Below are positions 9,992-38,820 of a DNA stretch of 64,000 nucleotides, piece by piece. Under the pieces are notes generated by a model, which had not been told where the DNA came from, did no database searches, and saw nothing but the letters and a program-made list of their open reading frames with translations. The number at the start of each line of letters is the position of its first letter. Positions within the stretch are counted from its first letter, which is position 1. The stretch is from contig MEUE01000001.1 in the NCBI GenBank assembly GCA_001771585.1, positions 602,744 to 666,743 on the forward strand. The letters run 5' to 3'. This stretch comes from a candidate division WOR-1 bacterium RIFOXYB2_FULL_46_45 (GTDB taxonomy: Bacteria > Margulisbacteria > WOR-1 > XYC2-FULL-46-14). A program made the position numbers and the translations under genes.

Positions 9992-10019
9992 ATATCGTTA
10001 AAATGAAACATAAATTTCA
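9992..10019 (-). promoter_or_regulatory. Sigma-28-like promoter for the giant glycosyltransferase operon
   Basis: Read on the minus strand: TGAAATTT, 14 bases ending TTTTAA, then CGATAT followed by an ATATATAGG run. The spacing from GAAA to CGATAT is 17 bases, the same as in the SigD/FliA consensus TAAA-N15-GCCGATAT. It lies 33 bases before the ATG at 9959, with the ribosome site between. The same arrangement recurs at six other places in the window. Confidence 0.8.
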
Positions 10020-10044
10020 CGCTAAATCTATCCCGCCCAAATTA

Positions 10045-10072
10045 ACTTCGTTGGGCTCATAAAAAAATTTCA
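10045..10072 (-). promoter_or_regulatory. Possible distal, weaker copy of the sigma-28-like box
   Basis: TGAAATTT, 14 bases, then CGAAGT on the minus strand, 53 bases upstream of the stronger box for the same operon. The -10 is a poor match. Similar CGAA-type matches also occur by chance inside genes, so this is tentative. Confidence 0.3.
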
Positions 10073-10073
10073 C

Positions 10074-10101
10074 TGAAATTTGGCCACCATTTTAACGATA
10101 T
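10074..10101 (+). promoter_or_regulatory. Sigma-28-like promoter for the PurA-like gene
   Basis: TGAAATTT, 14 bases ending TTTTAA, then CGATAT and an ATATATAGAAAG run, followed by the ribosome site and the ATG at 10125. It stands divergently, about 55 bases from the matching box on the minus strand. The downstream 12 bases equal those of the promoter at 19407-19434. Confidence 0.8.
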
Positions 10102-10124
10102 ATATATAGAAAGAGGTGTTTAAA

Positions 10125-11606
10125 ATGTCCTATTTCGGATTTAAGAGCATAAGGGTGGGAGGGATAAAGCTTCCTACAATCGTAAGCGGATCACAGCCGT
10201 TCCGCAGCGGCTTTTTCTCTCGTAAATCACTCCCTTTCAAAAGCGCCCACGCAATTGTCGGTTTGGGGTGGGGAGACGAAAGAAAAGGGGCCAACACCGA
10301 TTTTGTCGTTTCACGCATCAGAGAAATTGCCCCGGACCGCTGGATAATTGTCGCGCGCTTCAGCGGAGGCCCCAACGCCGGACACAAAGTGGTCCATCCT
10401 TCCGGAAAATTCCGTGTCTTTAACCAGGTCCCATCCGGAATCCTGGTTGAAGGCAATACGATCGGGATCCTTTCAAAATTAGTCGACCTTGATCTCTTAT
10501 TCGAGGAAATGAGAATATTGGAAGATCGTTTTGGGAAAGCCCTGTTTAAACCGGATAAAATCAGGATTTTTGAAGATTCCACCATTATTCTCCCCTATCA
10601 TCCGGCGCTGGGCAGAATGGAAGAAGCGGCAAGGGGAGACGGTGAACACGGCAGTATCGGCAGAGGGGTTGGAGAAGCGGAAAACGATAAAGAAGAGAAA
10701 ATAAAACTCAAAGAACTAATTGACGCGTTGGGGGACTCGGAAAAAAGAAGCGCATTGGAAAGGAAGCTGACCGATATTTGCAGAGAAAAACACAAACGGG
10801 CAATGCAAATAAAAACCCGTTCGAGCAGGGCAAGCGAGCATTATAATCCGAACGACTTTAATCCAAAAATTATTTTGGAAAAATATTTATCTTACGCACG
10901 ATTTCTCCAGGAGAAAAACTTAATTATCGCTCCTGATTTTATAGAGAAAAAATTCGCAGAAGGAAACATCTCCATTGTTTTTGAGGGGTCGCAAGGAGCG
11001 TTGCTCCATCCAAAATACGGACCGGAACCGTATGTAACCAAAACCAACATATTGGCGGAAGCCATACAAGATTATGCCGGAACCACTATCACTTTGGATC
11101 AAGTTGAGATAATCGGTTCAATCCGGGCCTACCACACCCGCCACGCGGTCGGTCCGTTCCCGACCGAAATACCTCCAGCTATCTGTCCGGATGTACTGCT
11201 CGATTCCACCCGCGGCAACCCCTGGCGGGGATCTTTCAGGGCCGGGTGGCTGGACATGGTTCTTTTACGATACGGGATCGGGCTAAATGCCAGGATCGAT
11301 TCTCTGGCGGTAAGCTGCCTTGACCGGCTTGACACTTTGGGGACTATCCGTTTTTGCCCCGCTTATACATCGGGTCCGGATTTTCCGCCAGGATTGAAAA
11401 AAGGAGCGGTCACTGAATTTTTAATGCGGACCGTGCCAATTTATGAAGAATATCCCGGATGGCTTAGGCCAACCGTAGGGATTACAAGATATAACGACCT
11501 TCCGCAAGGAGCAGCCAGACATTTAAAAATAATTGGAGAACACACCAACCATGAAGTCTCCGCTTTTTCAATCGGGGCGGGAAGGAATCAATTAATTCTT
11601 CTTTAG
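10125..11606 (+). CDS. Divergent adenylosuccinate synthetase-like protein (PurA paralogue)
   Basis: Predicted 493 aa; canonical PurA, which joins IMP and aspartate using GTP, is about 430. Family landmarks are in order: GWGDERKG near residue 49 (GxQWGDEGKG, catalytic Asp kept but the loop altered), FSGGPNAGH (the catalytic His region), PSGIL, FEGSQGALL, AYHTRHAVGPFPTE, a GWLDMVLLRYG segment and a C-terminal GWLRPTVGI. Where PurA has IGTTGRGIGP there is GSIGRGVGEAENDKEEK, then a charged insertion of about 60 residues. An N-terminal extension of about 40 residues is also present. The ATG at 10125 follows GAGG by 8 bases. Its last 15 bases overlap the convergent gene downstream. The changes and its regulon membership make a specialised paralogue more likely than the housekeeping enzyme; its substrate is unknown. 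Confidence 0.75.
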   Translation: MSYFGFKSIRVGGIKLPTIVSGSQPFRSGFFSRKSLPFKSAHAIVGLGWGDERKGANTDFVVSRIREIAPDRWIIVARFSGGPNAGHKVVHPSGKFRVFNQVPSGILVEGNTIGILSKLVDLDLLFEEMRILEDRFGKALFKPDKIRIFEDSTIILPYHPALGRMEEAARGDGEHGSIGRGVGEAENDKEEKIKLKELIDALGDSEKRSALERKLTDICREKHKRAMQIKTRSSRASEHYNPNDFNPKIILEKYLSYARFLQEKNLIIAPDFIEKKFAEGNISIVFEGSQGALLHPKYGPEPYVTKTNILAEAIQDYAGTTITLDQVEIIGSIRAYHTRHAVGPFPTEIPPAICPDVLLDSTRGNPWRGSFRAGWLDMVLLRYGIGLNARIDSLAVSCLDRLDTLGTIRFCPAYTSGPDFPPGLKKGAVTEFLMRTVPIYEEYPGWLRPTVGITRYNDLPQGAARHLKIIGEHTNHEVSAFSIGAGRNQLILL

Positions 11607-14480
11607 TTTTTTCTCTGCGATTTCGCTTGCCTTGAGTGCGGCAACGTCAATCTCTTTGAGCATAATAACCACGGCAGGATTATCTGTGTCCCGATCTTCA
11701 ATCGTAACGTCCAACGGAAGACCGTCTTTCAATTTGCCTTTTAATGCTTCCAATGCTTTTTCATTGGCAAAGCCAAAGATCAAAACCCCATTTTTATCAA
11801 CCAGTTTAACGCTAAGCTTCTTAACTGGTGTTCTTCTGCCGCGATCAAGCTTTTGAAGTTCGGCGACCAAAAACCCAAGATACGTAAAAAGAAGCGGATT
11901 CGCTGTTATCTGGCCGCGCCGCACATTCTCCTCGGTATTGCTGCTTTCATCCTTCGCCAAATCGCACAGCGGAAACGCGTACAAAAACTCGATTCGGTGG
12001 AAATGGCTCATAATTTCCGAACTGATGTTGCTTGCCGCAAGATGCTTGTCCCAATAATCTTTAAGACCAGCCAGCCCCTCCGGACGGTAATCCATAAAAT
12101 ATTCCTTCCCCTCTTTGCCATGATCAATCTGATCAAGGACCGAAACCGCCGCTCCAAGCCGATAGGGGGTTGTTCTTCCCGAAATTGTCCGTATTTCTGC
12201 AATCGCCGCTCCAGGATTGTTTTTATGTTTTTCCATAATATTATTTATTATTTCTCTTAATTCAAAATAGGTCTCAACCCTCAAATTGGAAAGGTTGCCG
12301 TGTGAGCCGATATCGGCAATGGTGATAAACAAAATCCGGTCAAGCAGGGCTTTTGCCCTGAAGATATCAATCTTCCCATTTACAAGGAGGAATTTTTTCA
12401 CATCTTCATCCTCCAGCATTTCGGCAAATACTTCAAGAGAAGAATGCCCCACATAGAAACCGCCAAAAGCATGATGGTGTTTTATCGCCAGTTCCAGGCA
12501 CCTGCGGCTTAATTCATTCTCCGCCTTTTTTAACTCTTCAACTTTTTTTAGCTCTTCTTTTTTCTTGTTGCCATCAAGGATCTTCTTTATTTTTCCCTCC
12601 GCCTCTTTTACTTTTTTGGCATCAAGAGGCAAGAATGGAAACCCCTGAAAAAGCCGGCAATCCACTATCAACTCGTATCCATTTTTATCGTGGTAGGCCA
12701 AATCGTTAACATCTCCCGGTTTACCCAAATCGTGGGCTGCCACCAGGAGAATCCGCTCTTTTTCCGGAATGGCCGCGGCAAGCTCCCTGATCCGCGCGAG
12801 ATTTTTCTTCTCTCTTTCGCGGTTACCCAAAAGTGAAAGGACTCCCAATCCGGGACTCCTCACCGCGAAAGTTTCGGGAGTATGGCCAGCCTGGATCGCC
12901 ACCGCGATTGTATCCAAAACATGCTTAGGCGTAAAATCCAAAAAAGCATCCGCTTCCAATTGCGTGAGAGGATTGCGGCCGGCTTCTTGAAGTCTTGAAG
13001 AATCTCTCATAAGAATAGTTAACAGGTTCAAAATAGCCCTCTCCCCTTTTTGCCCGTATAAAGCCCCGCGGATAGTTCCCAGCGTCCTTGCGTCAATTGC
13101 CGGATCCTGGGCCGCCGTTACCGCCATACTTAACAATTTGCGCGCCCTTAAAGCACGGGGAGAATCGTAAGAATAAGTCATTGGCTTCAAACCGGTGCTG
13201 GCCGCTATAAAATCAAGAATAGCATCAAGATCAAGTTCATCAAGTTCTCCCGAATTTTCAAATTCAACATCAAACTGCCCTTTTAATTTTTCCAATGCTT
13301 CCCTGACTGCCAGGGTTGTCTTTTCCCTCTCCTCCGCCGGACGGTCGCTCTCCTCTTCTCTCTCCCTAAGCCGCTCTTTTAACTTCTCTTCGCTTACCCT
13401 AAGATACAAAGTATGGACATCGATTTCTTTTTCTTTAAGAGCGGCGGCGATGGCCGGTCCGCAGGCAAGCATTTGAACTCCACCCCTGTAACGGGCCAAA
13501 CGCAGCGAGGTTTTTAATACCCCGTACCTGGCGCCATAGGCCTCTTCAACCGCCGCGAATAATCCCTGGTCCAGAAAAGCGTCAAATTCTTCCGGGCTTG
13601 CATATTCTTCTCCGATTCCGCCGGCTCCGATCCTGTCGGTAAAGACCGGAATAACACCCGCTTTTTTACTTTCGTCAAGCCTTTCTAAAATAGTGCTTTT
13701 CCCCGAACCGGAAGCTCCGGTGATAGTAACCAGTTTGAAATCGGTCCCGTCGGGAGAGCTGTTCCAATCCCTCAACAAAAGTTCGATATCATCGGACCTA
13801 AAGTGGCGCGGATTATATTCCCACCCAAAATAAGAAGCTATTCTTTGCGCTTCTTTAGCATAATCCGTTACTCCTAAAACAGGAAACCAGTTCATCGCCA
13901 TTTTATATGCTAAATCGATTTCCCGATCCGCGTCTTTGGGGGTGGCAGTACAATGTATCGCGTTAAACCTCGGATCAATTTCGTAGGGAGGAGAAAAGCT
14001 CCCCTCTTCTTCAAGTTTAAGCTGGTATCTTACTGACGCTTTAACCTGATCAGCCGTAATCACTTTGTCTTCATGGGTTAAGCCTTCATGAACAGCTTTC
14101 TCCGGCCAGGTCGGACCGACTACCGACGGATCCCTTAAAAAATCATAGAGGGTCTTTTTCCCCGCCGGCACTTCCGCTTCAACAACAAACGCCAAAATAG
14201 GGGCTTGCAAAACTCCGGGATTAGAGCTGGCGGAGATAAAACGAAGCGCCAATTCCCTTCTTAATCCTTCATCCAGCGTTCTCCACGCTTCGGAATAAAA
14301 CCGGTCTACAAATTCCGGGGTCGGCATAAATAAAATCGGAGCATTAACACTAGCATTAATGTTGTGCGCTTCATGTAACCTCTGCACCAATTTATTTGCC
14401 GCCTTCACGCTTAAACCGGGAACCATCGCATCCGGTTTCACCATTATCAGTGCCCGTTGGACTGCAGAAGCGCTTGCCAT
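11592..14480 (-). CDS. Trifunctional fusion: nucleoside diphosphate kinase, guanylate-kinase-like and HD domains
   Basis: Predicted 962 aa. Residues 7-200 resemble nucleoside diphosphate kinase: ALIMVKPDA at the start, GPTWPEKA, and NAIHCTAT near 173-180 with the phospho-accepting His. Residues 248-425 resemble guanylate kinase: Walker A GASGSGKST at 255-263, a TDRIGAGGIGEEY segment in the GMP-loop position, and RYGVLKTSL. Residues about 515-730 carry an HD phosphohydrolase signature: His 520, AHDLGK at 582-587, HHH at 668-670 and Asp 723. A charged coiled stretch lies near 620-660. The ATG at 14480 follows GGGGAGG by 9 bases and starts 2 bases after the upstream stop. The first two activities would turn GMP into GDP and GTP; the HD part could hydrolyse a nucleotide. 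It is third in the 19.4-11.6 kb operon. The domain calls are by motif; activity is inferred. Confidence 0.75.
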   Translation of the reverse strand: MASASAVQRALIMVKPDAMVPGLSVKAANKLVQRLHEAHNINASVNAPILFMPTPEFVDRFYSEAWRTLDEGLRRELALRFISASSNPGVLQAPILAFVVEAEVPAGKKTLYDFLRDPSVVGPTWPEKAVHEGLTHEDKVITADQVKASVRYQLKLEEEGSFSPPYEIDPRFNAIHCTATPKDADREIDLAYKMAMNWFPVLGVTDYAKEAQRIASYFGWEYNPRHFRSDDIELLLRDWNSSPDGTDFKLVTITGASGSGKSTILERLDESKKAGVIPVFTDRIGAGGIGEEYASPEEFDAFLDQGLFAAVEEAYGARYGVLKTSLRLARYRGGVQMLACGPAIAAALKEKEIDVHTLYLRVSEEKLKERLREREEESDRPAEEREKTTLAVREALEKLKGQFDVEFENSGELDELDLDAILDFIAASTGLKPMTYSYDSPRALRARKLLSMAVTAAQDPAIDARTLGTIRGALYGQKGERAILNLLTILMRDSSRLQEAGRNPLTQLEADAFLDFTPKHVLDTIAVAIQAGHTPETFAVRSPGLGVLSLLGNREREKKNLARIRELAAAIPEKERILLVAAHDLGKPGDVNDLAYHDKNGYELIVDCRLFQGFPFLPLDAKKVKEAEGKIKKILDGNKKKEELKKVEELKKAENELSRRCLELAIKHHHAFGGFYVGHSSLEVFAEMLEDEDVKKFLLVNGKIDIFRAKALLDRILFITIADIGSHGNLSNLRVETYFELREIINNIMEKHKNNPGAAIAEIRTISGRTTPYRLGAAVSVLDQIDHGKEGKEYFMDYRPEGLAGLKDYWDKHLAASNISSEIMSHFHRIEFLYAFPLCDLAKDESSNTEENVRRGQITANPLLFTYLGFLVAELQKLDRGRRTPVKKLSVKLVDKNGVLIFGFANEKALEALKGKLKDGLPLDVTIEDRDTDNPAVVIMLKEIDVAALKASEIAEKKLKKN

Positions 14481-14482
14481 GG

Positions 14483-17400
14483 CTATTTACCTCCCCTTAT
14501 GGCGCGAGGAGTGCGCCGGACCCTTTTTTGAACCAAGTTGCACAACACTTTAAACGGCATTCCTGTCCCGAAAACAATTTCATGGTCGGCCACTTTGCCG
14601 TCCTCTTTCTTTCCGCCCCAAATCCTGGTGTATCCGGTCTCAAGCACCCCGTCATAAAGTTCAACCGTTGCCATGGCGATGTTGGGCGGAACGACCAGCA
14701 CTTTTTCTTCGTCCGTATGAATCACATCGTAAAGCATCCGCATGGCGGCAACCGGAATCACACTCGGCTTGGGATAACCTTTGCTCAAATCAAAGGTCAT
14801 TTCCGGAAATTCAATTTTACCGGTAATCCTGGCGCCGTTTATAACGGTATAGGGAGTAATTTTTACCGGCTGCGCTATCTCCGCGTCCAGCAGGATTGTG
14901 TACGGTTTAATCTCCGTGCCGGCGGCCAGCTTGGTCCCCCGTCCGATATAAACTTTGGAGATATCTTCTATAACAACCTCGCCTATTTTGATTCCTTTCT
15001 TTCCATACAATTCATAATTCTCTTCCCCTGTAAACTCAATCTCCCCCAAACACGCCCCCTCTTCAATATTCTTCCTCATTATGGTTCCAATATCCGCTCC
15101 ATCCGGAGCCGGCTCGTTCAATCCTTCTATGTCCCGATACATCAGGCGCATAAAGTAGTCCTGGTGGAAAATTTCCATATACTTCCTAAAAATCTCCTCA
15201 ACCGTCCCGGTATCCGAAAAATGGTCCAAAACCGCGACCCCCACTCCTTTCGATTTATCTTCCACCATTCTGGCAATCCGCCAAAGTTCGATCCAATCTT
15301 GCATATGCACCAGTTCCGGCGTCCATCCCTCTTTTTCTTCTTTTCTTGCCAGCCAGGCCTGCAGACAAATCAGGTTTTTCAGTGGAGTCCATCTTGGATC
15401 GTTTCTTGGAACACTTCGCAATGCCCTGATGTTTCTCTCCGTCAAATTGAATCCAATCTCTATCCGCTTGGCAAAACCATGGCTTTTTACTTTTTTCTGG
15501 ATATCTTCAAGATTATCAATGTCTTGAACAATCGCATCAATGGATTTATGCTCGGCATCAACTTTTCCGATCATCATCGGTTCCATCAGCAGCTGCGCCC
15601 AGTCCACATAAGGATCTTTCTTGAAAAGCAAATTAAGCGGCAAAGCCGGGTTTTCCTTCCCGGTTTTAGGATCATGGCTCGGTCTACTAAACGCCCGTTC
15701 CAATTGATCCGCCAATTCTTCCGTAATCGACATAACAAAAGTATTCAAATAAGTATAGAAAAGGGCATTGGCCAACTGCCTTGCTTCTTCCCACTGGTGA
15801 TCACTTACTCCTCCATGCGGTACTTTTGCCCATTCTTCTTTGGTCGCCTGGGCCGCCCGCGCCAGAAATTCTTCCCAATTTCCGGCAATTGCCGTAAGAC
15901 CAGAAGAAACACATTGTAGGCAAACCTCTTTAAACAAATCCGCCGCTTTCATTTCGCCCAGTTTGGTAATTTTGCGCAAGTTATCTGTCCAATAATCTTT
16001 TCCTCCCAATTTACCGCTTAAAACCTGCCTCCTGATCCCCTCTCTTAAAACTGCCAGAGGGGGCTTTTCGATAAATTGGATTAATTTCCCTTCTCCATCA
16101 AAAACCGCCTGTCCCAACCCCTTAAGATAGCCTAATTGTCCGTCTGGAACCCCTTCCACCTGTGCTTTAACCGTCATAATATGCAATCCGTAATCGGTAT
16201 CTCTTAAAAACTTTTCCCCTACCCTTATCCCTTGATAGTCATCCTTAAAAAGAGCATAGCTTTTAAGAAGCTGGTCGCAACCAAGCAAAACCACTCTTCC
16301 TTTTCCATGATTTGGGAGCTGAAAAGAGATCTCTGCCGCTCCCATCAGCGACATAATTGAGAAAGGAACATATCCTAACCTTATTCCTCCTTTACTGACA
16401 TCCTCCGCCACCCCCAGCATCAGAGATCTGGTCCCTGCCCCTCCTTCCGTCTCAAAAAGAAGGACCGCGTCGCGGCCAAATTGTCCTTTTTTGATCGCCC
16501 TCGCAATCAAGACCAAAAAGGCCGAAAGGTTCCCGATCATGACCTCTTCGTCTTCCCTTCGATCGGTCTTTGCGGCCGAAACCGCCCCGACAACTTCCAT
16601 ATTCCCTCTTATGCGATCAAGCATCTGTTCGTAAAACCTGGCCGATTCGATAAGCTGGACAGTTGCATTTTTCCTGACCCGCTCGGAGGCATCTCCAAAA
16701 TATTCCATTACCAATGATTTAATAAAATTAACTTTGTGGTTCGCCAGAACATAACCGGTATTTCTAACCGGAGTATCGTCTTTGGGTAAAATCTGCGGTT
16801 CTTCAACTTTAGGAGCGGGACACGTTAATGTTGGGGCATCGGGGTCAACCGCGTTGACTCTTTTGGTAAACTCAAAATGCCTGATTGTATTCCTAACTTC
16901 CTCCCCCAGCCCCAAAGTTGTGCCTCTTGTATTAAAAGCCCAAACTTTCCGTTCTAATTTTAGTTTTTTGTCCGAGGTGCTTAAGGTCGGATAAATTGCT
17001 CGAGCCACCTCCAATCCCAGTGCCGCCGCCTTAAAATCCCCTCCAATCAAAACCGCTTCGATGTAACTTAAAACTTCTTCCTCCCTGCCGGCAAAAAAGC
17101 TGGCCAAAACCGCTTCCGCCGCTCGTTTTGAAATTGAAGCGGCCTTCTCGTCGGTAAAAATTTCAATCAACATATTGAGATTGGGTGCAGAGATCGCTTT
17201 GGTTGTGGCTCCGGTCGCGACTACCCCGTTTTCCGGATGCAGCATCGGATCAACCACCAGTTTCGAAAAATTACCGGCGGCCGCTTTGGGATCTGCCGTT
17301 TGTCTTTTCTTGTCGTCAACCACCAGGCTCTTTTTGGCCATCTGGATAGCGTCCTGCACCGCTTTTGGAATACTGACTTTATCTTTGGAATCGCCTGCCT

Positions 17401-18235
17401 CCAAATAGGCCTGTTGGGCGACCAGATGGATTAACCCCTGCTGGACTTCCCTTCTTCCACCTTCCATAAACATCAGGGCAATTTCCGGAACTTCGGCATT
17501 CATCTGGTTTTGAATCTCTTTTAGTTCTTCGGCTATGCAATCGATATCGGTCTCAACGGTCCGGCTCCCCTCGATTGCCTTAAGGGCTTCACCCGCCAGG
17601 CGTTTATATGTCCCAATTCTCTGCGCTTTTCGTAAAACTCTTCTTGTTTCAACAATATCTTTGGGAGGAGAAAACTCGGCGGAATCCTTTATCAAGCGTA
17701 AAATCCTCTCCACTTCAAGGGGAGGAGTTTTTTTGTCGATAATTTTAGCCAGAAGATTTTTTTCTTCTTCCAGCCGGTGTAATAACAAGGGGCCTCCCCC
17801 TTTAGTTCCACCGCCCGCGGCAGGAACACCGGTTGGTTGCGCGGTCACCGCCTCCGCATCTTCCCCTTTTAACATTATATGCAACCGGTCAAGCAAGCTT
17901 GTTTTTCCAACCGTGGGGAAACCGCTTTCCCCCGCCAAAGCAAAAGCAAATTGTTCGGTAAATGAGAACCCAAAACCTCTAAATAATTTCTCTCCCGCCA
18001 ATCTCCTCTCTTTCAACTCCAGCGTCAATCCGCTCCCCAAAAGCCCGTATTTTCGAGCCGCCATTTCAATATCCAGCCGGCCGGTGAAGGCGGTAACAAC
18101 CGCCGAATCGGAGGCGATCTGCCGCCCCAACTGTTCGGACCCAAAATGCCGGCCCAATACTTTCGCCAATTCCGGATTGTATCCGGTGCTGGTTTTTAAA
18201 CCGATCCAACTTATTTTTTGTGTTAAACTTATCAT
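14483..18235 (-). CDS. Large sugar-nucleotidyltransferase-like protein with left-handed beta-helix
   Basis: Predicted 1250 aa. The centre resembles a sugar-1-phosphate nucleotidyltransferase: EGGAGTRS near 597-604 in place of the GxGTR loop, VVLLGCDQ near 648-655 where the metal-binding aspartate is expected, and FIEKPP near 721-726, a hallmark of the family. Near 1090-1160 a hexapeptide-type stretch (VYIGRGTKLAAGTEIKPYT) suggests a left-handed beta-helix, as in GlmU and GlgC relatives. The first 580 residues are mostly helical; a GFPTVGKT sequence near 105-112 fits a Walker A motif but may be chance. The start overlaps the upstream stop as ATGA, and GGAGG lies upstream. Together with the kinase fusion next door it could activate a sugar for the glycosyltransferases. 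The exact substrate is not readable, and the family match is distant. Confidence 0.65.
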   Translation of the reverse strand: MISLTQKISWIGLKTSTGYNPELAKVLGRHFGSEQLGRQIASDSAVVTAFTGRLDIEMAARKYGLLGSGLTLELKERRLAGEKLFRGFGFSFTEQFAFALAGESGFPTVGKTSLLDRLHIMLKGEDAEAVTAQPTGVPAAGGGTKGGGPLLLHRLEEEKNLLAKIIDKKTPPLEVERILRLIKDSAEFSPPKDIVETRRVLRKAQRIGTYKRLAGEALKAIEGSRTVETDIDCIAEELKEIQNQMNAEVPEIALMFMEGGRREVQQGLIHLVAQQAYLEAGDSKDKVSIPKAVQDAIQMAKKSLVVDDKKRQTADPKAAAGNFSKLVVDPMLHPENGVVATGATTKAISAPNLNMLIEIFTDEKAASISKRAAEAVLASFFAGREEEVLSYIEAVLIGGDFKAAALGLEVARAIYPTLSTSDKKLKLERKVWAFNTRGTTLGLGEEVRNTIRHFEFTKRVNAVDPDAPTLTCPAPKVEEPQILPKDDTPVRNTGYVLANHKVNFIKSLVMEYFGDASERVRKNATVQLIESARFYEQMLDRIRGNMEVVGAVSAAKTDRREDEEVMIGNLSAFLVLIARAIKKGQFGRDAVLLFETEGGAGTRSLMLGVAEDVSKGGIRLGYVPFSIMSLMGAAEISFQLPNHGKGRVVLLGCDQLLKSYALFKDDYQGIRVGEKFLRDTDYGLHIMTVKAQVEGVPDGQLGYLKGLGQAVFDGEGKLIQFIEKPPLAVLREGIRRQVLSGKLGGKDYWTDNLRKITKLGEMKAADLFKEVCLQCVSSGLTAIAGNWEEFLARAAQATKEEWAKVPHGGVSDHQWEEARQLANALFYTYLNTFVMSITEELADQLERAFSRPSHDPKTGKENPALPLNLLFKKDPYVDWAQLLMEPMMIGKVDAEHKSIDAIVQDIDNLEDIQKKVKSHGFAKRIEIGFNLTERNIRALRSVPRNDPRWTPLKNLICLQAWLARKEEKEGWTPELVHMQDWIELWRIARMVEDKSKGVGVAVLDHFSDTGTVEEIFRKYMEIFHQDYFMRLMYRDIEGLNEPAPDGADIGTIMRKNIEEGACLGEIEFTGEENYELYGKKGIKIGEVVIEDISKVYIGRGTKLAAGTEIKPYTILLDAEIAQPVKITPYTVINGARITGKIEFPEMTFDLSKGYPKPSVIPVAAMRMLYDVIHTDEEKVLVVPPNIAMATVELYDGVLETGYTRIWGGKKEDGKVADHEIVFGTGMPFKVLCNLVQKRVRRTPRAIRGGK

Positions 18236-19377
18236 TTTCCGCCACCTCCGGAATCCGCCGCGGCCTGTGCCTGACCCGATCCTCCGGAAGCTCCCGCTCC
18301 GTCTCCTCCCGATGCTTTTTCCGCCCGATCCGATTCCGCCTGCTTTAACGCGTCAAGAGCCATTTTAACAAGTGCCAGTTCATCCGCTTGAAGTCCCGTC
18401 CCTTTTTCAAGCTTGTTGGTCAATACTTTCTTTAAATCTTCCAAATCTTTCGCCTCTATCTTTATCCCTTTCCCTTTTGCCGCCATTTTTCTCGCGAAAA
18501 AACGAATTTTCTCCGCGATAAGTTTTCGATCGTTTTCCGCGGTTGTCGAGTTAATTTTTTCTATATCTTCAATAAGCTTTTTTGTTTTTTGATCCAATTC
18601 TATTTTTGCCCCCCCCCTTTCTCCCCCTTTGTTTTTTTGTTCTTCCACCTGTTTTGCCAGAGCAATATCCCTGATCCGATCAGCCAAAGCCTTGATTTCA
18701 ACGGACAAAAACATCGGCTTAACTAAGCCGGCCGCGCCCGCCAACAGCCATTCACAGTCGCCAACCGCTCCTCCTCTGATGATCGAAAGATACGCGGAAA
18801 AGCGCTGGGGTTTTTTTCCGGTCCTTATTATTGAAAGGAGATCTCCTCCGCTAAATTGCGGCGCCGCTGGAACCATTGCCAATGGGGCTGTTTTTGGTGC
18901 GGAGACGATTGTCTGAGCGGCAAATCTCCTGGAGATTTCGTCCATGACTTTGCCGGCAAAAGGATCATCGGTTAAATCGGCAATCCTGCCACCGCAACCG
19001 ACAATATGTTGCAAAAGAGGTGCTTTGTCCGCGGGATTAGAGAGTGAAGAGATATACTTTTCGTCAACCCGCATCGCTCTCATTACCATGGGCCTATACC
19101 ATAAGCGGCTAATTCCAAATCTTCCCAACCAGGTTAAAGAAAGGCTGGCAAGTGTGGTTTCTCCCAAAACCAGCATAAAAGCAGAAAAACTAGAGAAATC
19201 GATAAAGGCCGCTTCATAGGCGCTTCCAAATAATTTATATCCGGCCACAGTGGTTATGCATACCGAAGCCCCAAAAGACAAGGCCCTGACCACTTTACCG
19301 GAAAATCTCTTAAAATTAGAGACCGCTGTAGGCAAACGGAGATCTGTACCGCCAGGGATTCGAACCGGTGTTATCAT
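18232..19377 (-). CDS. Two-helix membrane protein, family unknown
   Basis: Predicted 381 aa from the ATG at 19377, which has AAGGAG 10 bases upstream; a GTG at 19386 is the alternative. Two hydrophobic segments lie at about 32-52 and 65-85. The remainder is cytosolic-looking: a helical, lysine-rich middle and a C-terminal tail of Gly, Ala, Ser and Gln ending in GGGGK. The coding strand has a run of eight G near 18609-18616 inside codons for KGGERGG; the frame stays open across it. I recognise no family. It is first in the operon behind the sigma-28-like promoter and overlaps the nucleotidyltransferase gene by four bases, so it may anchor or organise the other products at the membrane. That role is inferred from position. 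Confidence 0.75.
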   Translation of the reverse strand: MITPVRIPGGTDLRLPTAVSNFKRFSGKVVRALSFGASVCITTVAGYKLFGSAYEAAFIDFSSFSAFMLVLGETTLASLSLTWLGRFGISRLWYRPMVMRAMRVDEKYISSLSNPADKAPLLQHIVGCGGRIADLTDDPFAGKVMDEISRRFAAQTIVSAPKTAPLAMVPAAPQFSGGDLLSIIRTGKKPQRFSAYLSIIRGGAVGDCEWLLAGAAGLVKPMFLSVEIKALADRIRDIALAKQVEEQKNKGGERGGAKIELDQKTKKLIEDIEKINSTTAENDRKLIAEKIRFFARKMAAKGKGIKIEAKDLEDLKKVLTNKLEKGTGLQADELALVKMALDALKQAESDRAEKASGGDGAGASGGSGQAQAAADSGGGGK

Positions 19378-19406
19378 CTCTCTCACTCTCCTTTCTTTCT
19401 ATATAT

Positions 19407-19434
19407 ATATCGTCAAAATGAAAGCGAAATTTCA
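19407..19434 (-). promoter_or_regulatory. Sigma-28-like promoter for the nucleotidyltransferase operon
   Basis: On the minus strand: TGAAATTT, 14 bases ending TTTTGA, then CGATAT and ATATATAGAAAG, with AAGGAG downstream and the ATG at 19377. Spacing equals that of the boxes at 9992 and 10074. Confidence 0.8.
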
Positions 19435-19451: not shown

Positions 19452-19479
19452 ATTTCGTGGGGCAATTTCGGAAATTTCA
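19452..19479 (-). promoter_or_regulatory. Possible distal copy of the sigma-28-like box
   Basis: TGAAATTT, 14 bases, CGAAAT on the minus strand, 45 bases upstream of the main box. It parallels the second box at 10045. Weak -10, so tentative. Confidence 0.35.
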
Positions 19480-22947: not shown

Positions 22948-23625
22948 TTATTTCAAACCGAATTCCAGGTTGTCGATATTGTAGTTAATCTCTCCGGTCT
23001 CGGTCACGGCAACACAGATCAACTGGATCTTGACCAGTCCGCCCGAACCGTTCGCTAGATTGGGGTTCCACTTGAAATCCCCGCGCCCGTCGTTTTTGAA
23101 CTTGGACATAGGGATTGAAACATGCTTCCACCCTTTCCAGTTCACGTCAATTTCGGACGACCAGACATCGTCATAGATCGCTTTCCAGCTCTTGTCGACT
23201 TCAACATCGGTGTTGCCGTTGTCGTCGTCGTAAAGCTCGATCTTGAGCTTGCCGCTCCCTTCTCCCATACCATAGATATCTATTTCAAAACTGGTGTAAG
23301 GAGTGGCGTCAACGCCCAGCATGGAGCCCATACCGCCAACATACCAGCTCTTCGCCATCCCCTTCATGTTCAGCGAATAGATACCAAGGTTGGGAATAAC
23401 CGACGGTTCTCCGTCCTGCAGCTTGGCGTTCTTCACAATGGTCGGAATAAGGTTGTCAAAAACAAACCACTCCGGATCCTTGGTGTAGGTCCCGTCCTCA
23501 AAATTATCGATTAAATAAGGATAGGCTTTGCCGGCGCTTTTGCCGCCGGTAGTTGGAGCCGCCGCAAAACCGCAAAGCATCGGAACAATAAAAATCAGAG
23601 CGAATATTAATGCTAGCTTCTTCAT
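22948..23625 (-). CDS. Secreted carbohydrate-binding protein (CBM11/CIA30-like)
   Basis: Predicted 225 aa. A Sec signal peptide occupies about residues 1-22 (MKKLALIFALIFIVPMLCGF, then AAAP). The mature part is a single beta-rich domain beginning YLIDNFEDGTYTKDPEW, a start typical of CBM11/CIA30-like jelly rolls, and it has several acidic clusters (YDDDNGNTDVEVD) that could bind calcium. There is no catalytic module. It starts at an ATG with a perfect AAGGAGG eight bases upstream. A variant sigma-28-like box lies 20 bases further up. The permease genes for sugar uptake end 55 bases upstream on the same strand, so it may also be read through from them. A role in binding glycan outside the cell is likely; the ligand is unknown. 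Confidence 0.75.
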   Translation of the reverse strand: MKKLALIFALIFIVPMLCGFAAAPTTGGKSAGKAYPYLIDNFEDGTYTKDPEWFVFDNLIPTIVKNAKLQDGEPSVIPNLGIYSLNMKGMAKSWYVGGMGSMLGVDATPYTSFEIDIYGMGEGSGKLKIELYDDDNGNTDVEVDKSWKAIYDDVWSSEIDVNWKGWKHVSIPMSKFKNDGRGDFKWNPNLANGSGGLVKIQLICVAVTETGEINYNIDNLEFGLK

Positions 23626-23645: not shown

Positions 23646-23673
23646 ATTTCGGAATGTTTTTTAAAAAATTTCA
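23646..23673 (-). promoter_or_regulatory. Variant sigma-28-like promoter for the carbohydrate-binding protein
   Basis: TGAAATTT, 14 bases, then CGAAAT followed by ATATTTAAGGAGG on the minus strand. The intergenic place and exact spacing support it; the -10 differs by one base from the CGATAT form, so confidence is moderate. Confidence 0.5.
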
Positions 23674-26555: not shown

Positions 26556-27704
26556 TCAGTAAATCCTGAAGTTTCCCGAGGCCATCAACAGTCCAAAGTT
26601 CAACCAGCAGATTTCGTAGTAGCGGTATTGGCCGGTGGGGAGCGGCTGTGCCATCAAGTGGTTGAAAAAATTAACCTTGTCGGTATTGGACGATCCCCCC
26701 ATTGCGGAGCCGGCAAAAGAACCGATCCATGAAACCACATGGTCGTCCCTGGTTTTGGTCCCGCCCAAAGAGTACCTGTTGCCAAAAGTATCGTATTGAG
26801 GACCAAAGAATCCGATAATTTTATCAAGATAAGTTTTCGCCCTCGGTTCGGTCGCCCCGAACCAGACGGCGTCAAGTGCAACCTGAAAGGGGACCCGCAT
26901 CGCGTCGTAATAAAAATCCCGCCCGGTGCTCTGTAACGAGCCGTCTTTATTTGACCAGTCGGGAACCAAGCCGGTCGCAGCGTTTTTGGAACGATCGATC
27001 AGATCGTAGCCGTTTTTGGCAACCGTGTTCCAGATGTTGTCGGAAGTATAGATGGCAAATAAGCGGTAAAAGGCCGGCATATAATAGGAAAGGTTAAAAA
27101 TGTTTTTATCGGAAACATTGAAGGTTAAATAGTAGTCGGAGGTCATTTCGTATTTGAGGATATTATCAAGGATCTTTTTTGCCTGGACCGAATAGTCGTA
27201 CGGCGCCGCCTTATTTCCCCAGCGATGGGAAGCAAAATATAGCGCCATCGCGATCATCTCTTCTCCGTCCGGCGCCGGTTCATAGCTTAAGACTTCACCG
27301 CTTGAATCGGTTTGCCAGGAGAAGAGCCCATAGGGGTTGGTATCCTGCATATGGGTTTTGGTCCAGAGCCAGATCTTATCGAAAGCGGCCTGATCGTTAT
27401 TTTGGACCGCCAGCATCATCCCGTAGGACTGCCCTTCGGAGACGACCGTATTATCGTCGGTCCGTGAAACCGCGCCGCTTGGTTGCAGAAGTTCTTGTTT
27501 AAAGTAAGCCCAGGCCTCGGCGCATTTTTTGTCGGCCACTGCTTGCGTATAGCTTGAACCGGAAAGCGCCGCTGCGGAAGGATAAGTCCCGCTCGCGTAA
27601 CTCCCTTCTTTGGGAATATTTACCTGGTTTTGAGAATTATAATTGCTATTTTGCACGCTGCACCCGGACAGGAATAATACCAATATTAGAACAAGTATCC
27701 TCAT
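26556..27704 (-). CDS. GH8-family glycosidase lipoprotein
   Basis: Predicted 382 aa. The lipobox LSGC at 13-16 marks a lipoprotein; residues up to about 45 are a linker. The GH8 domain shows VSEGQSYGMM near 88-97 with the catalytic Glu, PDGEEMIAMAL where cellulases have TDADxxIA, and YYDAMRVPF near 265-273 with the catalytic Asp. The PDGEE form is typical of the branch that includes reducing-end xylose-releasing exo-oligoxylanases, so oligosaccharide trimming is more likely than endoglucanase action. It starts at an ATG only six bases past a sigma-28-like -10, so the mRNA is probably leaderless. It is single-gene and co-regulated with the glycosyltransferase operons. Confidence 0.88.
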   Translation of the reverse strand: MRILVLILVLFLSGCSVQNSNYNSQNQVNIPKEGSYASGTYPSAAALSGSSYTQAVADKKCAEAWAYFKQELLQPSGAVSRTDDNTVVSEGQSYGMMLAVQNNDQAAFDKIWLWTKTHMQDTNPYGLFSWQTDSSGEVLSYEPAPDGEEMIAMALYFASHRWGNKAAPYDYSVQAKKILDNILKYEMTSDYYLTFNVSDKNIFNLSYYMPAFYRLFAIYTSDNIWNTVAKNGYDLIDRSKNAATGLVPDWSNKDGSLQSTGRDFYYDAMRVPFQVALDAVWFGATEPRAKTYLDKIIGFFGPQYDTFGNRYSLGGTKTRDDHVVSWIGSFAGSAMGGSSNTDKVNFFNHLMAQPLPTGQYRYYEICWLNFGLLMASGNFRIY

Positions 27705-27710: not shown

Positions 27711-27738
27711 ATATCGTTAATTTAACCAAAAAATTTCA
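27711..27738 (-). promoter_or_regulatory. Sigma-28-like promoter for the GH8 lipoprotein
   Basis: TGAAATTT, 14 bases ending AAATTAA, CGATAT on the minus strand, then TGTATT and the ATG at 27704. The six-base leader implies translation from a leaderless mRNA. Confidence 0.7.
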
Positions 27739-30900: not shown

Positions 30901-31029
30901 ATGCAGGGGAATGTTGTTCTTTGCTCCGTCCTCAAAGCCGCTGTTCTTTAAAAGATCGACGCTCGCATCAATTGGCAAAATAAAAAATGCCAATGCTAAA
31001 AAGCTAGCCCAAAACAACTTCAACTGCAT
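27943..31029 (-). CDS. Secreted multidomain glycoside hydrolase (clan A, GH5-like) with two CBM4/9-type modules
   Basis: Predicted 1028 aa. A signal peptide spans residues 1-21 (MQLKLFWASFLALAFFILPI). Two beta-sandwich modules follow, starting LLKNSGFEDG near 26 and LLENGGFEIWED near 185, as in CBM_4_9. A TIM-barrel catalytic domain runs from about 385 to 800: FWGTNLYPP, NLVRIHH, then INEAML with the acid/base Glu and VVSEWNS with the nucleophile Glu. The C-terminal 200 residues look beta-rich. I chose the ATG at 31029 (GGAAGGAG one base upstream in a purine-rich tract) over an ATG-like start at 31086 because only this start places the signal peptide first. It overlaps the GH94 gene upstream by 26 bases and should be coupled to it. 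It probably releases oligosaccharides outside the cell. Confidence 0.85.
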   Translation of the reverse strand: MQLKLFWASFLALAFFILPIDASVDLLKNSGFEDGAKNNIPLHWGTEYYNCSIVPGYSGKAIKIENKAPAMSLAAQSIKITPEMKKMQISAYIKAENIIEGKENWNKMNIQLLFFDKDEKQVGGWPELGPWTGSFGWRFVGRQFWVPKGAVTAKVVFGIYNTTGAAYFDSVRLETGTFAVDEYNLLENGGFEIWEDWAYGGSEEWAIVYPAQEGVGALYINNKTPVWSFASQSVPIDGSRIKKINVEAYAKAKNVVQGVKPWQKARINLEFKDSKGKRIGGWPIVGEFTGTIPNWQKFSGTFPVPEETVRVDVFAGLLECVGEVWFDSIKVEAITASGERIKKGGVSVTAKDKWYQFNPVPDTFADSTFDLSYLLDAPAGKKGFLKVKGDHFYFEDGSRARFWGTNLYPPMTFPSKQDAEYLAKRLAKSGCNLVRIHHLDAFWANPNIFDQNYNDTQHINKETLDKLDYLLYQLKKNGIYIFVDLLVDRKFKEGDGVADWQNVERGAKFAGFYNKRIIDLQKKYAEQILTHKNPYTGLRYVDDPAIVSYKLINEAMLYYIGTQFGLSKTYLAELDSIWNKWLLNKYGSRAGLEKAWTDRYGRCDLSAEENPSKNNVRRADTPLQYQRGGSEKVEPLREQDTMKFYYDLQVKYFKDMGSYLKLLGCRVPISGSNHWVNVAADVKANAVMDYIDRHRYWDHPQFGYGTRVVFENQAMVKQPKDALPNNFAFYRVAGKPFVVSEWNSCFPNEYRAEGPLLMAAYANHQDWDGVLIFSFNHAGWTAPMQDNFDLSQWPNVLAPWQSAALLFHRGDVKKAKYDFKQTLGDKELFGKIYEDSPIAEEPLLPLISKTQIDFAKEGNVSATEGYVNQFASTEKKTIKSDTGELKIDYGRGIFTINTNRTQAAVGFFKGESVKLSDVSFSSETNFVSLSLSSLDNAPISSSRRLILTAGARIENKGQKFSESRAQLKEVGEAPLLVEGVDAKVTLDRTPRAVYALDVNGGRKAAVSFSGTSFKINPSDQSFAYEVIF

Positions 31030-34204: not shown

Positions 34205-34224
34205 GTCCCGGTTAAATTCTCGCA

Positions 34225-34266
34225 CAAAAATAATCCGCCTCAAAGTGAAATTTCCGCCGGGCTTTG
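34225..34266. repeat. Direct repeat left of DUF4143 copy 2 (broken promoter copy)
   Basis: These 42 bases match 35525-35566 with one difference (37 identical in a row). They contain TGAAATTT, but the CGATAT that should follow after 14 bases is missing (GCAAAT instead), so this copy should not work as the sigma-28-like promoter. Confidence 0.8.
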
Positions 34267-34331
34267 TGCAAATTAAGCATTGACACTTCCATAATACCAG
34301 CTAAAATTGCAGGATAATTGCAAGATACCAC

Positions 34332-35533: not shown

Positions 35534-35566
35534 TCCGCCTCAAAGTGAAATTTCCGCCGGGTTTTG
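35525..35566. repeat. Direct repeat right of DUF4143 copy 2 (intact promoter copy)
   Basis: It matches 34225-34266 with one difference and contains the ATPase stop codon at its left end. This copy continues into CGATAT and is the working promoter of the next operon. Confidence 0.8.
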
Positions 35567-35573
35567 ACGATAT
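35546..35573 (+). promoter_or_regulatory. Sigma-28-like promoter for the 35640-38782 operon
   Basis: TGAAATTT, 14 bases ending TTTTGA, CGATAT, then ATACATAGAAAG. An ATCAGG-type repeat (35590-35620) and GGAGG precede the ATG at 35640. Confidence 0.8.
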
Positions 35574-35589
35574 ATACATAGAAAGTCAA

Positions 35590-35620: not shown

Positions 35621-35639
35621 AGAAAAAGGAGGAATAAAT

Positions 35640-36638
35640 ATGTCAGGAGAATATTTGGAAAGAAGTTATGCATGTATCAGAAACGAACAAGAATATATTA
35701 AAGGATTAAAAAGCTGGAAGGAATCATTAAAAAAATCTTGTGTAAAAGCGGAAGCAGGACCAGAAGATAAAAACTGCCAAACACTCAAACAATTAACAGA
35801 TGATGCGATTAAATTTTTGTCTTCCGATAATAGGAAAAAGGCACTGTCGAAATGGCTTGAAATTCAAAAGCAATGCCAGAACAAAAAAACGCAAGCAGAT
35901 CCTTTCTTGTTTGCAGCCCAAATGTCCCAACTTGCTATAAAAACGATTAGAACATGCAACGGTTACCCTCTGGACCAAGAAGCTCTTAAAAAAGCTCACA
36001 AAGATTTTTATCTAACGAAATCTGAAAATAATCCACTAAAACCGGAAGATCCTCGAAAATCACTCGAAAAAATTGTTCCAAAAACAGCTCCCCACAAAGA
36101 AAAAGAAATATCATTAGGATCCGGAAATCTTTATGTTAACTCAAAAACCGGCGTTATGGCCATAGCCGAAGGAAATAATCTTGAAGTTGCAAGCAAAGAA
36201 CACTTAAAAGAATGGTGGATGACTATGCCTCTGAGGGAAAGGGAATCTGTCGAAAATACCCTGATTGATCAAGAAAAACAATCAGGTATTACGATAGAAT
36301 TTTTACATAATAACACCGAGTCGCTGAAACGTTATCTGCAAAACAAAAAAATAGGCTTATGCCCCAACAACGTCTTTGGAATAAAAGACGAAGATGTTTT
36401 AACATGGCTATCCAACAGGGCAAGCGGATATCCGGATTTGGCCGAAAAATTAATTTACCTATTTGAAAACAAAATGATACCGTCTCCACCAGATGCTGAG
36501 AATATAAGCTTAAGCAGAATTAACGGAGCATATCAAAGAGCTCTTGAGAGAGGGTATGAAACCCCAACCGTTAAGCATTCTTTGTTCTTATTAAAAATGA
36601 TTTATGAGCAGCTTTATAATCATTACTATGAAAAATGA
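35640..36638 (+). CDS. Hypothetical protein, partner of the following glycosyltransferase
   Basis: Predicted 332 aa, no signal peptide or membrane helix. It is hydrophilic, lysine-rich and mostly helical, with several cysteines in the first 110 residues (positions about 11, 34, 46, 80 and 103). No family recognised. The ATG follows GGAGG by seven bases. The stop lies 11 bases before the start of the GT2 gene and overlaps its ribosome site, so they are coupled. Base composition is clearly AT-richer than in the 1-19 kb genes. A regulatory or scaffolding role for the synthase is possible but only by position. Confidence 0.75.
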   Translation: MSGEYLERSYACIRNEQEYIKGLKSWKESLKKSCVKAEAGPEDKNCQTLKQLTDDAIKFLSSDNRKKALSKWLEIQKQCQNKKTQADPFLFAAQMSQLAIKTIRTCNGYPLDQEALKKAHKDFYLTKSENNPLKPEDPRKSLEKIVPKTAPHKEKEISLGSGNLYVNSKTGVMAIAEGNNLEVASKEHLKEWWMTMPLRERESVENTLIDQEKQSGITIEFLHNNTESLKRYLQNKKIGLCPNNVFGIKDEDVLTWLSNRASGYPDLAEKLIYLFENKMIPSPPDAENISLSRINGAYQRALERGYETPTVKHSLFLLKMIYEQLYNHYYEK

Positions 36639-36649
36639 GGAGGTTTTCG

Positions 36650-38782
36650 ATGGCCTTAACAAGAGCCGCAAGAATAGCAAGTTACTTAAGTAGCAACAAT
36701 GCGATAAACAGGTCCCTAAATGCCTTCGGTTATTTTGCAAGGGCAACCTACAGCGGTTATGTTCCCGGAAGAACCAGGGATCTCGCAAGTATTGCTCAAC
36801 ATCTTGATGGGTCCAAAGAACTTGAGATAACTCCTGAAGGGATTTTTATCGATCATTCCCAGCAGGTTTCAACCAACCCATTTTTAATTGAAGCCTTTTT
36901 AGAACATCAAATAACAAAAATAGAAACTTCGGGAATAGACTATAAAGATCTGGTTAAACTATCAAAGGGGGAAATGCCAGAAGGATTAGAATCGCAAATT
37001 ACAAGAGATGAAGCATCAGCTCAACAAAGTTTAGAAAAAGTAATGGATAAAAATAACCAGAAAGTTATGAGATTAAATGCATTGGCAGCCTTATATGGAG
37101 GGATATTATATGCCTCCTATAAAGTATTAATGCTTGCGGTTCAAATAGCACCATTAAGCGCCATAGATCTATTCTGCAACATTATACTAGTCACATGCAC
37201 TATATCATATGCCGCAATAAATATAATTAAACAAAAATTTGTAGCGGACTCAACACAGTATATTCCACCAAAAGCAACTGAAGAAGAAAAAGAATTTGCT
37301 AAAGGTAAAGATGGACCGAAAATAACACTATTGATTCCCGCAAGAAATGAGCCAACAAAGGTACTTAGAAGGACTCTTCAAGCAGCAGAACACCTTGATT
37401 ATAAAAATTATGAGGTTGTGTTGCTCTTAGACTCTTATCCAAACTCTGAAAATTTTAAAGATGTCATGCAAATGTACGAACAAGAATTTAGAACCAATCC
37501 AAAAATAAAAGTATTTGCAAGAAAAAGACATCAGACAGTCAGAAATCAAAAATTAAATAAAGCTGATTGCGTTAATGCTTTTTTAAATGATGCGCATGGA
37601 AGACAATTTGAAGAGACCTTTTTTATTGCTTCCGAATTCATTGCAATAACTGATGCAGATTATCGCCTCTATCCAGAATTTTTAGCCGAAACTGTTCCGC
37701 ATTTATTAAGAGATAAAGACAATGCATATGTTATGACACCTCAAAATTTTCCTCAAGAACGGGGAAATCCTGTAGAACAATCCACTGCAGCATTAATAAA
37801 CTCTTCTTGGCAAATAGTTAACAGAGGAGCAGCACATTCTACCAGGGTCCTTTTTGGCGGATGCAACGCAGTAATAAGGATGTCGGCACTTGAATCGGTT
37901 GCTGTTTATAGAGAAACCGGGGAGAAGGATTATTTACCAACGGATACGATAACAGAAGATTTGGCATTAACCCTAAGATTTTTTGAAAAAAAGTATAAGA
38001 GTGTTTATTTGCCCCAACCATTAGCAGTTGGAGATCCGATTTCCAGCCTTGGAGATATTTTTGCCACCTATTGGAGATATGGAGAAGGATCGACAGAAAA
38101 CACACTAAAGCACACAATTCCTTTTATGAGAAGGGGAATAATTAATCTAAATAGCTGGGAAGGCGCCGACTATTTGGCTAAAGCAATTAATCCTTTTATG
38201 GTAGCATTAGTTGGAGGCATTTCACAATTTCACTTACTATCTCTGTTTGGAGTTCAATTAATCGGCACATCTGCGCTAGCCCCTATCTTATATTATTTTT
38301 TACTTTCAAATTCTGCAAAAGCTGCTCTTAAAAAACAGGGGATAAAAGATCCACTTGCTGTCGCAAAGATAACAACATTAACCTTCATTCAATTTCCTGT
38401 TTTTGTCGATTCAACCTATACTGCCATAAAAAACTATCTACTGGGAAAAGAAGCCTCCTATAGGGTAACAAAAAAAGACGGGAGTAGGACCAGAGTGCCA
38501 CTAAAATATCTGCTGCCATTATTAGGCACATTCTCTTCAAGTATATATTCATTTGCGGGGCATTTGTCAGAGTTTTCTGCCTCCCATGATCTATGGAGGA
38601 TAGAGGCTGCAAGCTGGGCCACACTACCAATATTATCTATCGGTTACGGACTTACTCATTTTAATGGAATCAAAAACACTTTAAGTGATTTATATTATGG
38701 ATTCAAAGAATTTGGAAGAGATGTTAAAGACAGCACAACAAGTACTGCTTTGGCTTTAGGCAGATTAAATTTTCCGGTTTAA
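36650..38782 (+). CDS. Family-2 glycosyltransferase, cellulose-synthase-like membrane enzyme
   Basis: Predicted 710 aa. An N-terminal region of about 140 residues without known domain is followed by two membrane helices (about 145-195), then a GT2 domain: LIPARNEP near 228-235, Asp 261, ITDADYR at 333-339 with the DxD metal site, GGCNAVIR near 403, TITED at 433-437 with the catalytic base, and YWRYGEG at 474-480 in the QxxRW place. At least three more helices follow. All motifs are compact, unlike the giant homologue at 4455. I chose the ATG at 36650 since GGAGG lies exactly six bases upstream; an ATG at 36635 has no such site. It should polymerise a sugar from a nucleotide donor and move the chain through the membrane. 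Product unknown. Confidence 0.88.
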   Translation: MALTRAARIASYLSSNNAINRSLNAFGYFARATYSGYVPGRTRDLASIAQHLDGSKELEITPEGIFIDHSQQVSTNPFLIEAFLEHQITKIETSGIDYKDLVKLSKGEMPEGLESQITRDEASAQQSLEKVMDKNNQKVMRLNALAALYGGILYASYKVLMLAVQIAPLSAIDLFCNIILVTCTISYAAINIIKQKFVADSTQYIPPKATEEEKEFAKGKDGPKITLLIPARNEPTKVLRRTLQAAEHLDYKNYEVVLLLDSYPNSENFKDVMQMYEQEFRTNPKIKVFARKRHQTVRNQKLNKADCVNAFLNDAHGRQFEETFFIASEFIAITDADYRLYPEFLAETVPHLLRDKDNAYVMTPQNFPQERGNPVEQSTAALINSSWQIVNRGAAHSTRVLFGGCNAVIRMSALESVAVYRETGEKDYLPTDTITEDLALTLRFFEKKYKSVYLPQPLAVGDPISSLGDIFATYWRYGEGSTENTLKHTIPFMRRGIINLNSWEGADYLAKAINPFMVALVGGISQFHLLSLFGVQLIGTSALAPILYYFLLSNSAKAALKKQGIKDPLAVAKITTLTFIQFPVFVDSTYTAIKNYLLGKEASYRVTKKDGSRTRVPLKYLLPLLGTFSSSIYSFAGHLSEFSASHDLWRIEAASWATLPILSIGYGLTHFNGIKNTLSDLYYGFKEFGRDVKDSTTSTALALGRLNFPV

Positions 38783-38792
38783 TAAAATAGTG

Positions 38793-38820
38793 TGAAATTT
38801 TTCAGATTTGTGTTCGATAA
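38793..38820 (+). promoter_or_regulatory. Sigma-28-like promoter for the 38894-41305 operon
   Basis: TGAAATTT, 14 bases, CGATAA, then ATATATAGGCAG. The spacing is identical to the others. CGATAA is the classical FliA -10. A GGAGATCC-rich stretch of about 45 bases and GGGAGG precede the ATG at 38894. Confidence 0.75.

Follow-up and report, generated by a model that had tools for sequence, protein, structure and literature searches.

The stretch considered here, called the window throughout, comprises 64,000 nucleotides (nt) of the 1.70 Mb genome of candidate division WOR-1 bacterium RIFOXYB2_FULL_46_45 (genome G000, contig C1, positions 602744-666743). It carries several copies of a two-part motif, TGAAATTT-N14-CGATAT in its exact form, which recurs in front of genes all over the genome and very likely marks promoters of the flagellar sigma factor FliA (sigma-28). 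The ancestral job of FliA is to switch on late export substrates, namely flagellin and FlgM. In the explanation proposed here, the organism's RNA polymerase, with its FliA as sigma factor, would use the sites as promoters. The flagellum would have kept its membrane rings, rod, C-ring, ATPase and export gate while losing filament and motor, and FliA would now drive approximately 100 genes that are not flagellar. Many products have an N-terminus rich in arginine, serine and threonine and poor in acidic residues, and these would be substrates of the remodelled flagellar export machine. Judged from the genome sequences, this combination of a FliA regulon with a flagellum turned exporter is, as a whole, probable.

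Probable promoter sites in the window and in the genome

A preliminary description of the window had listed seven sites, at 9992(-), 10074(+), 19407(-), 23646(-), 27711(-), 35546(+) and 38793(+). All of them were found there on these strands, with identical N14 spacing throughout. A pattern search of the 64,000 nt returned five exact and four one-mismatch copies, that is, nine matches at up to one mismatch, compared with a mean of 0.06 expected from 100 dinucleotide-preserving shuffles. Two sites had been overlooked, 19452(-) and 46143(+), both with CGAAAT, as had a weak CGAAGT copy at 10045(-), and at two sites (19407 and 9992) a second copy lies on the same strand 45-53 nt upstream. The described proximity to gene starts holds as well, six of the seven sites being located 6-66 nt upstream of a plausible start and 38793(+) 73 nt upstream. 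The sequences TTTT(A/G)A before and ATA(T/C)ATAG after the -10 element are real at 9992, 10074, 19407 and 35546 and recur genome-wide.

The genome as a whole contains 159 matches at up to two mismatches (66 + 93), compared with 13 (5 + 8) for the reversed pattern, while the CGATAW form with one mismatch gave 112 matches and no match in the control. From the stretches around motif matches 87 distinct sites were read. A gene start was accepted when it was found within 80 nt and an in-frame stop codon separated it from the site region. Since 68 of the 87 sites precede a gene start by this test, compared with 3.6% of random window positions, the matches are not scattered inside genes at chance rate, an outcome which the preliminary description had named as speaking against a regulon. 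The core letters of the motif were imposed by the search and their conservation proves nothing, but outside the search pattern there is a conserved A/T-rich stretch just 5' of the -35 element, an ATATA 3' of the -10 element and, 6 nt past CGATAW, a purine (A in 85% and G in 12% of the 87 sites).

The sites had been thought to link unusual glycan genes. This has turned out to be too narrow, as the window is a local sample of approximately 90-110 dispersed sites with diverse targets. Approximately two thirds of 70 targets outside the window have no Pfam family. Those which could be annotated include two Ser/Thr kinases, a PP2C phosphatase, an ADP-ribosylglycohydrolase, GNAT, an N-terminal asparagine amidohydrolase, a nucleoside hydrolase, GH77, a phosphoglucomutase, an FkbM methyltransferase, radical SAM proteins, AAA, an acyl transferase, a histidine-kinase ATPase, M23 and LysM, as well as two NtrC-type regulators and response regulators. 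At three loci of this genome (L006, L049 and L085) two NtrC-type sigma-54 activators and an orphan response regulator are found behind leaderless FliA-type promoters, and a sigma-28 to sigma-54 cascade is possible. Some members of a paralogous family with the N-terminus M-x-x-K-[LI]-I-[SA]-F-[DN] (L041:16198-16959, L041:7622-8311, L061:1381-2028, L066:408-1124 and L217) also stand behind FliA-type promoters, and one member belongs to a relative.

Predicted transcription start and leaderless mRNAs

Of the 87 sites, 22 are followed by an ATG at a distance of exactly 6 nt from the -10 element. Ribosome-binding sequences are generally missing from genes of this type but present in most of the others, whose leaders measure approximately 14-75 nt. 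In relatives the ATG is mostly 6-10 nt after the -10 element, of which only the exact offsets are informative, the loci having been fetched with a pattern that required a nearby ATG. The fixed 6-nt offset implies leaderless mRNAs. The simplest reading is that the start point is fixed at the A past the -10 element and that the mRNA is leaderless wherever the gene begins there. The promoter consensus would then be (T)GAAATTT-N14-CGATAW, with the transcript starting at a purine 6-7 nt after the -10 element and about a quarter of the mRNAs beginning at the ATG itself.

Selection on individual sites is seen at the divergent pair 9992(-) and 10074(+). In a relative (locus L211) the same pair of promoters lies between homologues of the PurA-like gene (39% identity) and of the gene for the 1836-amino-acid (aa) protein (29%). 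Both promoters have been kept there while their 14-nt spacers differ, which speaks directly for selection on the pair. Such conservation also bears on the idea that no promoter is involved and that the motif represents a dispersed repeat or the operator of a transcription factor, to which one could be led by the tandem sites 45 and 53 nt apart and by 34246(+), which resembles a partial copy of 35546(+). Still, the two boxes stay fixed while the N14 and the flanks diverge, the sites persist in distant relatives, and the orientation towards genes together with the exact ATG offset needs a promoter reading, so that a repeat or operator is highly improbable.

FliA as the probable sigma factor

Four Sigma70_r2 proteins are encoded in the genome: an RpoD-like factor, FliA, a 203-aa factor (C3:140217) and an ECF-like factor (C3:172296). 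The preliminary description, which regarded the sites as sigma-28-like, had looked ahead to a FliA-type sigma gene and an anti-sigma factor; the former was found at C3:15602-16270, and no FlgM (PF04316) was found for the latter. The fliA gene is located between flgI/flgJ-like genes and flgB-flgC-fliE-fliF-fliG-fliH-fliI-fliJ, and the flgI-fliA-flgB neighbourhood is recognisable around FliA in 19 loci read from the class. FliA was detected in 30 of 31 class genomes, in all relatives except one incomplete genome, with 63-79% identity. Its best profile family is TIGR02479 (FliA/WhiG; 137 bits), and the solved structures nearest to it include the FliA of Escherichia coli and of Aquifex. The fliA frame (C3:15602-16348) is open upstream to residues that are conserved in relatives and there contains no ATG, GTG or TTG, so the start codon is likely to be unusual.

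Flagellated relatives in the phylum serve as a control for the motif itself. They carry TAAA-N17-CGATAA before flagellin (G034, G037 and G047) and before FlgM-like genes (G032, G034, G037, G039 and G045), compared with GAAA-N17-CGATAW in the present genome, where the 17-nt spacing and the -10 element CGATAA/CGATAT are as in FliA/SigD promoters. As spacing and -10 element are the same as in the relatives' flagellin and flgM promoters, they are those of FliA promoters, with the -35 element shifted; the equal GAAA-to-CGATAT distance noticed in the preliminary description is thereby borne out. Motif sites number 21-262 per class genome, compared with 0-7 for the control pattern. With the promoters of the relatives, the fliA gene and this class-wide enrichment, the sigma-28-like reading is well supported. 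Other families of the phylum that lack flagellin (G043, G054, G052 and G070) have 97, 45, 20 and 21 TGAAATTT-N14-CGATAW sites, respectively, at up to one mismatch, which may mean that the regulon predates the class.

Two points weigh against FliA: its TIGR02479 score is below the family cut-off of 189.6, and the -35 element is GAAAT throughout rather than the canonical TAAA. The recognition helix of FliA region 4.2 is of the SRPKVCRLL type in the class compared with the SKSKVSRLH type in the other group, a covariation with the -35 change which is suggestive, though the correspondence is not clean. A clean residue-for-residue explanation of the change from TAAA to GAAA did not emerge, some flagellin-less relatives keeping the histidine yet using the TGAAATTT motif.

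One might suppose that another sigma factor, either the 203-aa or the ECF-like one, recognises the motif, or that the motif is a variant of the primary-sigma promoter. There are after all four Sigma70_r2 proteins to choose from, and at first sight a TTGAAA-like -35 element spaced by 17 nt would suit a housekeeping sigma factor. However, the -10 element CGATAW and the spacing match the FliA promoters of relatives, and motif-bearing relatives of the class mostly show two matches to a FliA query, a FliA orthologue and an RpoD-like factor. In addition, approximately 69 kb of flagellar and housekeeping stretches contain only two sites, both before uncharacterised genes. Another sigma factor is thus unlikely, and that FliA reads these promoters, which would make them a FliA regulon, we regard as very likely. 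No recognised flagellar gene is among the targets, and the motif was not found just upstream of the flagellar operons examined. In the normal flagellar hierarchy FliA drives late genes, and operons without the motif fit this order.

Flagellar genes in the genome and in the class

According to the preliminary description no motility gene is present. This is true of the window but not of the genome, which holds a flagellar basal-body and export set together with FliA. FlhA is full length (809 bits in a profile search of this genome only), and the genes of FliP, FliQ, FliR and FlhB, as read from the sequence, are consecutive before flhA. FliI, FliF, FlgG, FlgA and FlgH were identified by NCBIfam, and FliK, FliM, FliN, FliF and a short FliG (172 aa, without the C-terminal part) by Pfam. 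The score of FliI exceeds the cut-off for flagellar clade 2 but not those for SctN.

Profile searches found flagellin (PF00669) and FlgM (PF04316) in none of the 31 class genomes. MotA was not found in this genome, and MotA/ExbB is absent from 30 of the 31, the single match (G001) lying in a 131-aa frame. In flagellin-bearing families of the phylum the profile searches did find MotA and, in nearly all, FlgM (in seven of eight flagellin-bearing relatives), from which it follows that they work at such distance. The absence of flagellin, MotA and FlgM from 31 mostly draft genomes is strong but not absolute evidence.

N-termini of the targets and possible export

The first 30 residues of the target proteins differ from those of other proteins of the genome. 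Arginine averages 2.80 in 76 targets and 1.44 in 106 controls (p = 3e-9), Ser/Thr 4.22 and 3.29, and acidic residues 2.12 and 3.00, respectively; the choice of start codons was mechanical, and unrecognised targets may be present among the controls. The bias fades beyond approximately 30 residues. Leaderless genes, whose start is well fixed, and genes with ribosome-binding sites each show it when taken alone. A Sec-like hydrophobic core occurs in only 4% of targets, compared with 14% of controls.

Several observations count against export. The bias is weaker in 24 targets of relatives (p = 0.001 for acid depletion and 0.03 for arginine), the phosphoglucomutase aligns from residue 1 with known enzymes, and the targets include clear non-substrates, namely a lipoprotein GH8, a protein with a Sec-like N-terminus, membrane proteins and response regulators. 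It is on account of the membrane, lipoprotein, regulator and plain-enzyme targets that export is rated well below the regulon itself, and export of a substantial part of the regulon is put forward here only tentatively. It was also considered whether every target might be an enzyme to which an N-terminal signal has been added; this was abandoned, the phosphoglucomutase having no extension and the PurA-like protein having one.

FliA could also govern the regulon without any secretion, as a general developmental or stress sigma factor after the pattern of Chlamydia or the non-flagellated Legionella oakridgensis, the basal body being a relic or having another role and the N-terminal bias being otherwise caused. 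Response regulators, metabolic enzymes and membrane glycosyltransferases among the targets would suit such a factor, and Legionella oakridgensis has FliA and FlgM without any flagellum (PMC5655016). Basal-body synteny across the class, together with the intact export gate of this genome, is, however, unlikely for a relic, and the strong compositional bias with depleted Sec-like signals points away from it too; a regulon without secretion remains a serious possibility, short of an even chance. Extended to the whole class, the export explanation would mean that a flagellum has been converted, independently of known injectisomes, to a filament-less and motor-less secretion system, with sigma-28 in control of exported proteins, mostly unknown and numbering tens to hundreds, which have an arginine-rich N-terminal signal and are in many cases made from leaderless mRNAs. 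In this full form the proposal is possible but somewhat doubtful.

Genes behind the putative window promoters

The putative promoters and their targets are collected in Table 1. Among the target names given in the preliminary description, GH8 (27711), GT2 (second gene after 35546) and PurA-like (10074) were upheld; the first genes after 9992, 19407, 23646, 35546 and 38793 have no Pfam family, and the nucleotidyltransferase label could not be confirmed. Gene 18232-19386 is the head of an apparent operon with 14483-18235 and 11592-14480 (AAA_18-like).

Table 1. Putative promoters in the window and the genes behind them
Feature	Position	Strand	Remarks
Putative FliA-type promoter, TGAAATTT-N14-CGATAT	9992..10019	-	Divergent partner of 10074(+); arrangement kept in relative L211
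Weak tandem copy, CGAAGT	10045..10072	-	53 nt upstream of 9992(-); doubtful
Putative FliA-type promoter, PurA-like gene	10074..10101	+	Conserved in relative L211
Putative FliA-type promoter, gene 18232-19386	19407..19434	-	Motif match
Tandem copy, CGAAAT	19452..19479	-	45 nt upstream of 19407(-); motif match
Putative FliA-type promoter, CGAAAT, gene of 225-aa protein	23646..23673	-	Motif match
Putative FliA-type promoter	27711..27738	-	ATG exactly 6 nt past CGATAT; predicted leaderless mRNA
-35-like copy without -10 (GTGCAAAT)	34246..34273	+	Upstream sequence in common with 35546(+)
Putative FliA-type promoter, 332-aa gene and GT2 gene behind it	35546..35573	+	Motif match
Putative FliA-type promoter, CGATAA, EF-hand-like gene 38894-39535	38793..38820	+	Motif match
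CGAAAT match within open reading frame 44585-46399	46143..46170	+	Doubtful; probably no promoter of a canonical mRNA
1302-aa protein, weak GH8 domain	572..4480	-	Overlapping next gene after 4455-9965; putative operon
1836-aa protein, hydrophobic segments, no Pfam family	4455..9965	-	Target of 9992(-)
Divergent adenylosuccinate-synthetase-like (PurA-like) protein	10125..11606	+	Target of 10074(+); N-terminal extension of ~40 aa
384-aa protein, no Pfam family	18232..19386	-	Target of 19407(-)
225-aa protein, N-terminal hydrophobic stretch, no Pfam family	22948..23625	-	Target of 23646(-); carbohydrate binding is the reading of the preliminary description
GH8 glycoside hydrolase, lipoprotein-like N-terminus	26556..27704	-	Target of 27711(-); leaderless start
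332-aa protein, no Pfam family	35640..36638	+	Target of 35546(+)
GT2 glycosyltransferase, 715 aa	36635..38782	+	Second gene of the 35546 operon
213-aa protein, EF-hand-like DKDYSGKLETQEE segment, no Pfam family	38894..39535	+	Target of 38793(+)

Between window positions 34246 and 35573 the sequence aataatccgcctcaaagTGAAATTTCCGCCGGG is common to the regions before two genes, with a -10 element only at the second copy, and the gene of an AAA_14/DUF4143 protein sits between the two regions. An IS110-type transposase (19595-20902) adjoins the tandem promoters 19407/19452. The window is rich in glycan-active genes that do not directly follow confirmed FliA-type sites, namely those of two GH94 proteins and one GH48-like protein (31004-33433, 39554-41305 and 46412-48772). 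Elsewhere in the genome, an HgcA-type corrinoid protein (mercury methylation equivalog, 424 bits) is encoded at C3:1177-2199 (-).

Comparison with known systems

The late regulon of FliA/SigD in E. coli and Bacillus subtilis resembles the one proposed here in the -10 element CGATAA/T, in the 17 nt from an AAA-bearing -35 element to the -10 element, in the tie of fliA to flagellar genes and in basal-body operons not being under the motif. It differs in its -35 element, which is TAAAG and here GAAAT, and in that no flagellin, motor or FlgM was found here, where approximately 100 targets are non-flagellar and many mRNAs would be leaderless. Of the 52 FliA binding sites in E. coli, 30 are intragenic (PMC4183435), whereas here most sites precede genes. 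Non-flagellated L. oakridgensis has kept FliA without a filament, tied to non-flagellar functions (PMC5655016); it has lost the whole flagellar regulon and kept FlgM, while in the present case basal body and gate have been retained and the search for FlgM gave no match. A sigma-28 factor is also present in Chlamydia (PMC10597470).

Flagellar basal bodies of Buchnera have been proposed to be protein exporters (PMC3459982), and there too basal body and export apparatus occur without a filament, here known from genes. The condition described in this study is nevertheless class-wide and is accompanied by a large dedicated sigma-28 regulon. In the literature searched, no report was found of a class that combines a retained export machine with the loss of filament, motor and FlgM and with a large sigma-28 regulon that includes leaderless mRNAs. 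If the explanation is true, the promoter would offer a simple way of reading, from the genomes of uncultured bacteria, a large set of proteins that may be exported. Injectisomes are believed to share a single origin, a flagellum whose motility was lost before it became specialised for secretion (PMC3459982). The injectisome and the ancestral form in Myxococcus are similar to the present case in that a flagellum was exapted after the loss of motility genes (PMC3459982), but here FliI is of the flagellar type, and the P- and L-ring proteins FlgI and FlgH as well as sigma-28 are kept. A class with rings, gate and FliA but lacking filament, motor and FlgM would then be a living, independent example of the step from which injectisomes originated.

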